Source: Candidatus Bathyarchaeota archaeon
Lineage (GTDB): Archaea; Thermoproteota; Bathyarchaeia; RBG-16-48-13; GCA-020355125
Direction of reading: 5' to 3'
NCBI GenBank assembly: GCA_030617005.1
Contig: JAUWWH010000009.1
Coordinates: 1 to 10,635, forward strand
DNA: 10,635 nucleotides
The translations under genes were made by a program, and so were the position numbers. Below are positions 1,391 to 3,696 of this stretch, piece by piece (position 1 is the first letter of the stretch; the number at the start of each line of letters is the position of its first letter). The notes beneath the pieces are model-generated. The model saw only the letters and a program-made list of their open reading frames with translations, did not search any database and was not told the DNA's origin.

Positions 1391-1398
1391 ATATAAAA
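1391..1398 (+). promoter_or_regulatory. Probable TATA box for the HAD-Pcc1 gene
   Basis: ATATAAAA centred near 1394 predicts a transcript start around 1418-1421, at the GGTGGA site (1416-1421) ahead of the GTG at 1431. The leader would be only about 10 nt. Confidence 0.5.
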
Positions 1399-1430
1399 GA
1401 GTGAAAGAGTAAACTGGTGGAATAAAGAAA

Positions 1431-2315
1431 GTGAAGATGGTTGTCTTCGACCTCGATGGTGTCTTAGTAGACATTGACAGCAGTTGGAGACGGATTCATA
1501 GAGCCTTTGGTGTTGACAATGAAGTGAATTTCCAGAAACATCTGAAAGAGCAGATTGATTTTGAAGAGTTTATGAGATCCGACATTCGACTATGGAATAG
1601 ACCTAACATAGATAAAATTAAGAAGATTCTTAATGAGGCCCCTTTAATGAAGGGTGCTATTGAGACCGTTAAGGAACTAAAAAAGATGGGTTATAAGATT
1701 GCAATTATCAGTAGCGGGGTATCAATACTTGCTGATCGAGTAAAGGAAGAGCTAGGAATAGAGTACTCCTATTCTAATAAACTACTTGTTGGAGATAATG
1801 GAATATTGACAGGTGAAGGCGAGGAAGCTGTCTCTTTAATGAAAAAAGATGTTGTCTTAAAAAAGATGATTGAAGTTGAAGGAATAGAAAGTAAACAGTG
1901 TGTAACTATTGGAGACAGCAGATTTGATATTCCTCTCTTTACGAACTCAGGGCTAAGTATAGCATTTAACCCTAAAGATGACTTAGTTAGGGAAGCGGCA
2001 GATTTAGTAATAGAAGGGACGGATTTAAGGAAGATATTACCATGGCTCTCAAATAAGAAGGGAATTAACAAGGTAGAGTTTTCTTTTGTTTATTCAAGTG
2101 GTAGGAAGGCAAAATCAATCATTAGATCAATCGCCCCAGATAATTTAATAACACCATTTGGTTTAATCATTAAAGCAAGAAGGGATGGAAGAAGAGTTGC
2201 AGTTAAAATAGTTACTATAAAAGGGGTTGAAACTCTTCTATCAACAATCAATGATCTCTTATCGTGTATTCAGATCGCAGAAGGTGTTTTAAACGTTGTT
2301 GAAGAAGCGCCGTAG
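1431..2315 (+). CDS. HAD phosphatase (phosphoserine phosphatase-like) fused to a KEOPS Pcc1-like domain
   Basis: The protein has 294 residues from GTG 1431, with GGTGGA 9 nt ahead. Residues 1-208 form a HAD-IB hydrolase closely resembling Methanocaldococcus phosphoserine phosphatase: nucleophile motif FDLDGVLVD (D7, D9), motif II IISSG (S94), catalytic lysine K139 and GDSRFD (161-166, D162). Two residues that hold phosphoserine in that enzyme, E20 and R56, align with D16 and D51 here, so the substrate is probably different. Residues 212-292 match Pcc1, the dimerising subunit of the KEOPS tRNA t6A complex: KVEFSFVYSSGRKAKSI, APDNLITPFGLIIKARRDGRRV, then a helix ending in IQIAEGVLNVV. Pcc1 normally stands alone at about 80-90 residues. 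The eS1 gene follows, a neighbour that Pcc1 genes often have in archaea. The two-domain reading is firm; what the HAD does for KEOPS, if anything, is unknown. Confidence 0.85.
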   Translation: MKMVVFDLDGVLVDIDSSWRRIHRAFGVDNEVNFQKHLKEQIDFEEFMRSDIRLWNRPNIDKIKKILNEAPLMKGAIETVKELKKMGYKIAIISSGVSILADRVKEELGIEYSYSNKLLVGDNGILTGEGEEAVSLMKKDVVLKKMIEVEGIESKQCVTIGDSRFDIPLFTNSGLSIAFNPKDDLVREAADLVIEGTDLRKILPWLSNKKGINKVEFSFVYSSGRKAKSIIRSIAPDNLITPFGLIIKARRDGRRVAVKIVTIKGVETLLSTINDLLSCIQIAEGVLNVVEEAP

Positions 2316-2384: not shown

Positions 2385-3011
2385 TTGCCAAGAAGACGAA
2401 GAAAAGTTCAAGATAAATGGAGATTAAAAAGTTGGTATGATATTCATAGCCCGCCATATTTTGGGGAAGCCCATATAGGCTCAGCACCTTGTAGTGATCC
2501 AAATAAAATGATTGGGCGGGTTATCGCAAAGACCCTGTATGATCTTACAGACGATTTTGCCCATCAACATTTAAAGCTTTTTTTCAAGATTGTTGCTGTC
2601 AAAGAGAATAACTGCTTTACAATTTTCAAGGGACATGAATATTCTAGGGAGTATCTAAGAGGGCTTGTCAGAAGAAGAAGCACGAGGATTGATGATATAC
2701 TAAATATAACAACAAAAGATGGATACAAAGTGAGAGTGTCCACTGTAGTCCTCTCTGCTAAGAAAGCTAGAACCTCGCAAGTCTCCGCAGTTAGAAAGAT
2801 TATTCAAAGGATTGCGAACGAGAAAGCACAAGATTTAAGCTTCGAACAGTTTGTTCGAGAGGCAGTTTTAGGAAAGATAGCTTCTGACATGTACAATGAA
2901 ACAAAGAATATAATTCCCATCAGACATGTTGGAATAAGAAAGACAAAGTTAATGGCTTCTCCTATAAAGAAGGAAATGGAAAAATCTATAGAGGATATAC
3001 CTACAGTTTAG
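2385..3011 (+). CDS. rps3ae: Small-subunit ribosomal protein eS1 (S3Ae)
   Basis: This 208-residue protein of the 30S subunit has the normal archaeal length. It shows the basic N-terminus PRRRRKVQDKWRLKSWYDI, the APxxF/G-type region PPYFGEAHIGSAPCSDPNKMIGR, then KTLYDLTDDFAHQHLKLFFKI, GHEYSREYLRGLVRRRSTRID and the C-terminal IRHVGIRKTK, all typical of S3Ae. The start is TTG at 2385: the GAGGGG site (2373-2378) is 6 nt ahead. An ATG at 2381, in another frame, is only 2 nt from that site and reads just 11 codons. The gene sits between the Pcc1 fusion and a nucleotidyltransferase. A T6 tract (3057-3062) after the stop may terminate the message. Confidence 0.95.
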   Translation: MPRRRRKVQDKWRLKSWYDIHSPPYFGEAHIGSAPCSDPNKMIGRVIAKTLYDLTDDFAHQHLKLFFKIVAVKENNCFTIFKGHEYSREYLRGLVRRRSTRIDDILNITTKDGYKVRVSTVVLSAKKARTSQVSAVRKIIQRIANEKAQDLSFEQFVREAVLGKIASDMYNETKNIIPIRHVGIRKTKLMASPIKKEMEKSIEDIPTV

Positions 3012-3078
3012 AAAAAATTAATTATCACCCTTTTCCTCTAAACTTATTCAGATCCATTTTTTAAGATGACTTCTCTTG

Positions 3079-3696
3079 ATGGAAAAGGAAAGAAGAATCA
3101 AAATTGCTCAGGAGGCAGCTAAACTCCTTTATTACAAGATAGCTAGAGATTATAAACAAGCGAAGAAGAAAGCTTGTAGAGATCTAAATGAAAGGGTCTT
3201 CCCCAGTAATCTAGAGGTAGCAACAGAATTAGATAAATATGCAGATGAGATGGAAGGTAAAACTAGAAGAATGTTGAACATACGCCTTCGACAGAAAAGT
3301 CTTCACATTATGGAACACCTCAAAGAGTTTAATCCAAGACTCATTGGAGGCGTCTGGCGTGGTACAGCCAAAAAAGGAAGTGACATAGACATCACAGTCT
3401 ATGCAGATAATATTGAGTCAGTGTATAATATAATTAAGAGGAAATATAACATCTTAAAGGCAAAATATTCGTACAAGACTGCAAAAGGAAAAACAGAGAA
3501 GTATTACCACATCTACATATTACTTGCTTCAGGAGATGAAGTAGAAATTGTAGTAAAAGATTTAACGTATCTGAATGAAAAACGTAGATGTGAAATTTAT
3601 GGAGATTATATAACTGGCTTCACTATCGAGCAACTTCAAAAGATACTAGATACAGACCCCACAAAAAAGTTAATCCCAAAATGGAAAGTAAAATAA
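3079..3696 (+). CDS. Nucleotidyltransferase of the Pol beta superfamily, function unknown
   Basis: The protein has 205 residues from ATG 3079. A TTG directly before it (3076) is in frame, but the GATGA site at 3065-3069 fits either. Residues 1-85 are helical and strongly basic. They are followed by the Pol beta-type nucleotidyltransferase signature GGVWRGTAKKGSDIDITVY (90-108) with metal-binding D102 and D104. A later strand, DEVEIVVKD (153-161), may supply the third carboxylate. The remainder has no recognisable domain and is too short for CCA-adding enzyme or poly(A) polymerase. Such proteins transfer a nucleotide to RNA, protein or a small molecule; the substrate here is not predictable. 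It ends 27 nt before the sugar nucleotidylyltransferase gene, with no obvious promoter between, suggesting co-transcription. No HEPN/MNT partner gene is present, which argues against a toxin-antitoxin pair. Confidence 0.75.
   Translation: MEKERRIKIAQEAAKLLYYKIARDYKQAKKKACRDLNERVFPSNLEVATELDKYADEMEGKTRRMLNIRLRQKSLHIMEHLKEFNPRLIGGVWRGTAKKGSDIDITVYADNIESVYNIIKRKYNILKAKYSYKTAKGKTEKYYHIYILLASGDEVEIVVKDLTYLNEKRRCEIYGDYITGFTIEQLQKILDTDPTKKLIPKWKVK

Follow-up and report, generated by a model that had tools for sequence, protein, structure and literature searches.

Fusion of a HAD-IB phosphatase domain to a predicted Pcc2 subunit of KEOPS in a family of Bathyarchaeia

Pcc2, a paralog of Pcc1, represents the fifth subunit of the archaeal KEOPS complex. 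As described in PMC9889334, it pairs with Pcc1 and keeps KEOPS from forming double complexes, and it adopts a beta-alpha-beta-beta-alpha fold, helix alpha1 of which is split in two in P. abyssi Pcc2. An acidic residue at position 73 is presented there as a Pcc2 signature that never occurs in Pcc1, and the Pcc2 sequence logo displays a D/E consensus at position 72. The roles of Pcc2 and of Gon7, its proposed eukaryotic counterpart, are still poorly understood. In a few halophiles, Gon7 domains are reported as fusions with PAN or MutS (PMC10989989), which sets a precedent, with other partners, for a fused fifth subunit, and a Kae1-Bud32 fusion is described for M. jannaschii (PMC5682000). With respect to phosphatases, Arg56 of the M. 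jannaschii phosphoserine phosphatase (PSP) is reported to bind phosphoserine as part of the substrate carboxylate clamp (PMC6321591). No description of a HAD-Pcc fusion was found in the open-access literature, a scope outside of which most subscription papers fall, and nothing relevant was found in the open-access literature on a PSP-like HAD protein of Thermococcus.

The fusion described here is encoded in a window of 10,635 nucleotides (the whole stretch of DNA analysed) from a Candidatus Bathyarchaeota archaeon. The gene (1431..2315, + strand) starts with GTG, ends with TAG and encodes 294 aa in a single frame that contains no internal stop, as an earlier note on this DNA had claimed. A possible TATA-like element (atataaaa, 1391..1398, +), located ~33 bases 5' of the start codon, and a possible ribosome-binding site (ggtgg, 1416..1420, +) were recognized by eye. 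Residues 1-206 (1431..2048, +) constitute a HAD-IB phosphatase domain of the TIGR01491 subfamily, which is followed by a short interdomain linker (2049..2066, +) and by a domain, residues 213-292 (2067..2306, +), which PDB searches, local profiles and a tree identify as Pcc2, the fifth KEOPS subunit. The linker is of near-constant length in all 98 fused proteins: positions 206 and 218 are separated by 9 residues in 4 proteins, by 10 in 64 and by 11 in 30. A methionine is located within positions 198-222 in 22 of these 98 proteins, in which an internal start giving a free Pcc2 is therefore conceivable; the fusion at 1431-2315 contains none. No Rfam match was obtained in the whole window.

Structure prediction of the whole protein, proposed in the earlier note, was performed with AlphaFold2 and returned a model with pLDDT 93.1 and pTM 0.88. 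Its C-terminal half is composed of a strand (213-220), a helix (224-234), two strands (245-252 and 255-262) and a final helix (266-292), an order that fits the beta-alpha-beta-beta-alpha arrangement, while the alpha1 split is not resolved in the model, the mean pLDDT being 71 over residues 231-240. A search of a viral fold library yielded HAD-type matches, and the matches listed in a comparison with solved structures are HAD chains.

The earlier note had placed a Pcc1-like domain from about residue 212 onwards. Membership of the Pcc family is confirmed, with a start near residue 213, although profiles and tree point to Pcc2 and not to Pcc1. In the profile search suggested for the C-terminal part, residues 215-288 match NF011470, named 'KEOPS complex subunit Pcc1', with 40.5 bits (cut-off 27), while the match to Pfam PF09341 is weak (15.6 bits, E 0.023, under the cut-off of 20.9). 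The 69 members of alignment A1, which were chosen from the fused proteins, are all recognised by both NCBIfam models (E<=0.001). A single-sequence search of the PDB returned P. abyssi Pcc2 with an E-value of 1.5e-4 versus 0.053 for P. abyssi Pcc1. With a profile composed of the domain of the 1431-2315 fusion and ten free relatives, P. abyssi Pcc2 (7a67_B) was matched with 61.9 bits (E 3.7e-16) and P. abyssi Pcc1 with 16.7 bits (E 0.048). The same profile matched PDB chain 8up5_P (named Pcc1, 175 aa) with 30 bits (E 3.4e-6) in two stretches, and this chain perhaps contains two Pcc domains.

Local profiles were furthermore built from 13 proteins encoded in a Pcc2 gene context and 14 in a Pcc1 context. 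The Pcc2 profile was preferred by all 98 fused domains, the domain under study scoring 82.7 bits with the Pcc2 profile versus 4.9 with the Pcc1 profile, and the P. abyssi control pieces were sorted correctly (59.0 versus -0.4 bits and 4.2 versus 54.8 bits with the Pcc2 and Pcc1 profiles, respectively). A tree of 48 Pcc domains, 25 of which are fused, separates Pcc1 from the fused domains plus Pcc2 with support of 100/99; based on 91 columns and with long branches flagged, it is poorly resolved within the latter group, where the free Pcc2s cluster at only 67/59 and the fused domains are not nested among them.

Residue-level comparisons are consistent with this assignment. Pcc2 box 2, placed by alignment, corresponds to N274-D275 (2250..2255, +), where D275 occupies signature position 73; this position is D in 94, E in two and a gap in two of the 98 fused domains, and S in all 14 Pcc1 proteins compared. 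The acidity of position 72 is not shared by the fusion under study, which carries N274. This position is D/E in 74 and N in 22 of the 98 fused domains, and is also N in two of the 13 free Pcc2 proteins of the class (L062 and L070); its acidity was not taken as defining for Pcc2. The stretch P236-D237-N238 (2136..2144, +) is conserved in 97, 98 and 96 of the 98 fused proteins. On the basis of these sequence comparisons, the fused C-terminal domain is Pcc2.

The separate, stand-alone Pcc1 for which the earlier note had suggested a search is present in the source genome, and a free Pcc1-type gene was found in all seven genomes of the family to which this genome belongs (family f1), in each case sharing its stretch with Brix and/or prefoldin beta. 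With the fused domain being Pcc2 and Pcc1 being separate, it would be the subunit that caps Pcc1, and not Pcc1 itself, that carries the phosphatase. Kae1 was detected in 7/7 family genomes (five over the cut-off and two partial) and Cgi121 in 5/7, while Bud32 is located directly behind Kae1 in the source genome. Two Pcc matches were counted in each of the six fusion-bearing genomes (65-89% complete) and were taken as the fusion plus Pcc1, the individual rows not being itemised; no further Pcc2 was found beside the fusion in these six genomes. No branch of the Pcc tree is longer than that of the source-genome Pcc1 (L001:1422-1715; 3.48), and Pcc1 may thus evolve fast where Pcc2 is fused.

The HAD half of the fusion scores 167 bits with TIGR01491 (cut-off 151.9). 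Its catalytic residues, of which D7, D9, S94, K139 and D162 had been named in the earlier note as those of a complete HAD-IB hydrolase, are nearly invariant among the 98 fused proteins: motif I, D7-x-D9 (1449..1457, +), with nucleophile and acid/base, is retained in 96 (D7) and 95 (D9) proteins, motif II S94 (1710..1712, +) in 97, motif III K139 (1845..1847, +) in 98, and motif IV, D162 ... D166 (1914..1928, +), in 95 (D162) and 98 (D166). Fifty of the 98 fused proteins were compared to 46 free relatives, i.e., 23 listed proteins and 23 loci. According to the alignment, D51 (1581..1583, +) takes the position of Arg56, through which M. jannaschii PSP binds phosphoserine, and this position is D or E in 50/50 fused proteins and 46/46 free relatives (E in two of the latter). 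The position of Asn170 is F, Y or H in all 50 fused proteins, and N in one of the 44 tabulated of the 46 free relatives compared. Furthermore, W19, H23 and W55 are present in all 96 fused and free proteins and absent from M. jannaschii PSP.

With TIGR00338 (SerB), the 1431-2315 fusion scores 138.9 bits, under the cut-off of 144.15, which is slightly exceeded by the fusions encoded in G001 and G005 in the genome scan (148.1 and 149.0 bits, respectively). A SerB domain (241 bits) is also present in a further G005 protein, of 680 aa; it keeps both the Arg and the Asn, and its second motif-IV position, D167 in M. jannaschii, is N. This frame (L230, G005:C41, about 104714-106696) combines a phosphoglycerate-dehydrogenase-like part with the SerB domain, representing the first and last steps of serine synthesis in one protein. 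From the residues compared, the HAD half belongs to an archaeal PSP-like subfamily without the phosphoserine-binding arginine. Since the Arg56 position is D/E in 96/96 proteins and the other SerB-domain protein of G005 keeps both Arg and Asn, the HAD half is predicted to be a phosphatase for a substrate other than phosphoserine, probably a small one.

Free orthologs of the HAD domain occur within the same order and class as the fusion. Eight of their loci display scattered contexts, in which pairs share a neighbour (e.g., a nitroreductase-like or a membrane protein, named by eye) and no neighbouring gene is common to all eight. When these loci were probed for Kae1, Bud32, Cgi121, Pcc1, Pcc2, RecJ, S15 and XTPase, none of the eight gave a match, and the controls were found.

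The HAD-KEOPS fusion proposed in the earlier note was found to be a family trait. One frame spans both domains in six of the seven genomes of family f1, the G006 copy being cut at its 5' side by a contig end. No match was obtained in G004, and as this genome is 79% complete, loss is indistinguishable from an assembly gap. The class survey covered 256 genomes, i.e., the seven of family f1 and 249 others, with matches taken at E<=1e-20; 62 of the 249 others match, and in none of these does the match continue in an open frame through the Pcc region. In a phylum sample of 398 genomes (E<=1e-15), the source genome is the only one with the fusion among the matches listed. In the class and phylum lists, some HAD matches extend beyond residue 213 only if stop codons are ignored, and in two such genomes, G079 and G500, no Pcc gene is present behind the HAD region.

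At the protein level, 97 of the best 120 of 779 relatives, in addition to the query protein itself, are fused, the other 23 being HAD only, and relatives with as little as 44% identity retain the active site, the Pcc2 signature and the short linker. In a scan of genome contigs, none of the best 80 of 99 relatives matches past query residue 214. A search with residues 209-294, the word filter of which reaches close relatives only, returned 12 proteins (162-514 aa), all among the fusions listed. A sequencing error joining two genes, named in the earlier note as a possible refutation, or an assembly artefact is ruled out by the occurrence of the same frame in 6/7 family genomes and of the same architecture in 97/120 listed relatives. 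In their sources, the listed fused proteins go by the names of phosphoserine phosphatase, PSPase-like or HAD-IB phosphatase, or KEOPS subunit Pcc1, all of which overlook one of the two domains or give the wrong paralog.

The gene for ribosomal protein S3Ae (2385..3011, +) is a conserved 3' neighbour of the fusion in 6/6 genomes, and is followed in all six fusion-bearing genomes by that of a nucleotidyltransferase-like protein (3076..3696, +). The latter product slightly exceeds the cut-offs of Pfam DUF4269 and NTP_transf_2, with no NCBIfam match over its cut-off, and also adjoins S3Ae in several genomes that lack the fusion. In G003, a member of another genus, the order continues as at the source locus with sugar nucleotidyltransferase, YchF, L15e and Pop5, while the radical SAM and RNA-binding genes of the source locus are unmatched in the G003 stretch. 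Upstream, a GYD-domain protein (494-739) lies beside an 86-aa protein (741-1001) that is weakly similar to elongation factor Tu domain 2 (E 0.009, below the cut-off), and both also precede the fusion in L003 and L004.

Free Pcc2 proteins of 79-102 aa are encoded at 13 loci of related genomes, in all of which a gene of 474-487 codons (RecJ-sized) directly precedes Pcc2, and in seven of which S3Ae lies within the stretch. The row of G008 reads Bud32-XTPase-S15-RecJ-Pcc2-SerRS-S3Ae-NTase, with Bud32 at the edge of the stretch; RecJ was named by a family model only in G008, and the last gene of this row (NTase) matched no NCBIfam model. The G008 SerRS (L062:3553-5133), located between Pcc2 and S3Ae, scores 469 bits, close to the rare MJ type (cut-off 489.55), and is below the cut-offs of its models.

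RecJ lies elsewhere in all seven genomes of family f1, and in those with the fusion the HAD region precedes Pcc2. G001, G004, G005 and G006 carry RecJ on the Kae1 contig, within about 4 kb of Kae1, whereas G000 and G002 carry the two on different contigs; in G003, where the Kae1 match is partial, they are far apart. At the four family loci read, S15-RecJ is in each case followed by an unrelated gene on the opposite strand, with no room for Pcc2 in between. The RecJ homolog of G001 (L117/L118, G001:C87:5568-6895) is in pieces, with several stops. Because RecJ lies elsewhere, without Pcc2 behind it, the most likely order of events is that an older gene row, as in G008, would have broken behind RecJ, and that a HAD gene would then have come to lie in frame before Pcc2. 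A single origin of the fusion is not rejected by AU tests (p-AU 0.486 for HAD and 0.437 for Pcc), and is not proven either, as the best trees need three changes (HAD) and two changes (Pcc).

The observed domains, their conservation, the paralog identity, the gene order and the distribution are best explained, with a probability that we put at about 0.75, by a working Pcc2 in KEOPS which carries a catalytically complete HAD phosphatase and which arose from a broken gene row. Most likely, the Pcc2 half would pair with the separate Pcc1 via strand beta1 and the last helix, and this pairing would keep KEOPS a single 1:1:1:1:1 complex. The HAD half, a predicted and presumably Mg-dependent phosphatase with a complete catalytic site, would most likely be active and tethered to the outer end of KEOPS, since the Pcc2 half would cap KEOPS and the near-constant linker is short.

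Two finer versions of this explanation, the odds of which overlap with it, differ in what the phosphatase does there. According to the first, for which we would offer even odds, the HAD domain still serves an unrelated metabolic function, its joining to Pcc2 doing no more than tie its dose and place to KEOPS. Free orthologs in the same order and class without KEOPS neighbours are consistent with this, and the broken gene row accounts for the fusion without selection for coupling, although the retention of the fusion in 6/7 genomes and 97/120 listed relatives with a near-constant linker argues against a purely neutral joining. The second version, which we regard as rather unlikely, has the phosphatase act on a product or target of KEOPS, such as phosphorylated Bud32 or the nucleotide released in t6A synthesis, and so regulate the complex. 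Small molecules are the usual substrates of HAD-IB enzymes with this cap, which counts against such coupling, as does the lack of a match to Kae1, Bud32, Cgi121, Pcc1 or Pcc2 at the eight free-HAD loci; the latter result also leaves unsupported a t6A by-product or threonine phosphate as substrate, as suggested in the earlier note. The short near-constant linker and the joint conservation of both domains down to 44% identity speak for it. Furthermore, Bud32 of Sulfolobales is reported to autophosphorylate, and a PP2A-type phosphatase (not a HAD) to dephosphorylate such kinases in vitro (PMC5682000), which makes a regulatory role possible. None of the present results favours such a role over neutral joining. 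That the fusion represents a lineage-specific, built-in KEOPS phosphatase which sets Bud32 phosphorylation or removes the nucleotide product is regarded as rather unlikely; if true, it would add a layer of enzymatic control to t6A synthesis and would make the Pcc2/Gon7 position a docking site for regulators.

A departure of the Pcc2 half from KEOPS, with dimerisation of the phosphatase as its sole remaining role, is very unlikely. Pcc2 is reported to homodimerise in vitro, albeit through the smaller of its interfaces (PMC9889334), but no further Pcc2 was found in the six fusion-bearing genomes (65-89% complete) and signature position 73 is acidic in 96/98 fused domains. More improbable still is that the HAD half is the plain serine-biosynthesis phosphatase SerB, an identity which database names, the near miss with TIGR00338 and the two fusions over its cut-off would suggest, and which is rejected on the missing Arg56 and Asn170 equivalents in 50/50 fused proteins and on the separate SerB domain of G005. 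Finally, a canonical Pcc1, the automated name of NF011470 and of database proteins P0044 and P0076, has next to no chance of being the fused domain, and is ruled out by the free Pcc1 in 7/7 genomes, the tree and the profile comparisons.

The place of the HAD-Pcc2 protein among described systems can be outlined as follows. The fused domain is like archaeal Pcc2 (PDB 7a66/7a67; PMC9889334 and PMC10989989) in its profile and in the D at position 73, and the free-Pcc2 loci resemble the fusion locus in having S3Ae downstream (7/13) and a separate Pcc1 in the genome; however, Pcc2 is a free protein of 79-102 aa at the 13 loci read, whereas here it forms the C-terminal half of a phosphatase protein. 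The HAD half corresponds over its whole length to TIGR01491 HAD-IB proteins, with the catalytic motifs and the W19/H23/D51/W55 positions common to the 46 free relatives, which in contrast carry no Pcc2, and it differs from M. jannaschii PSP (1f5s) in the absence of Arg56 and Asn170 equivalents. In this natural fusion, which is retained across a family, a defined enzyme sits at the end of Pcc2, and this makes the place of Pcc2 and a possible signalling input to KEOPS testable. Gon7-PAN and Gon7-MutS fusions involve other partners and another lineage than HAD-Pcc2, and while Kae1-Bud32 joins two KEOPS subunits to each other, HAD-Pcc2 joins a KEOPS subunit with an enzyme from outside the complex.
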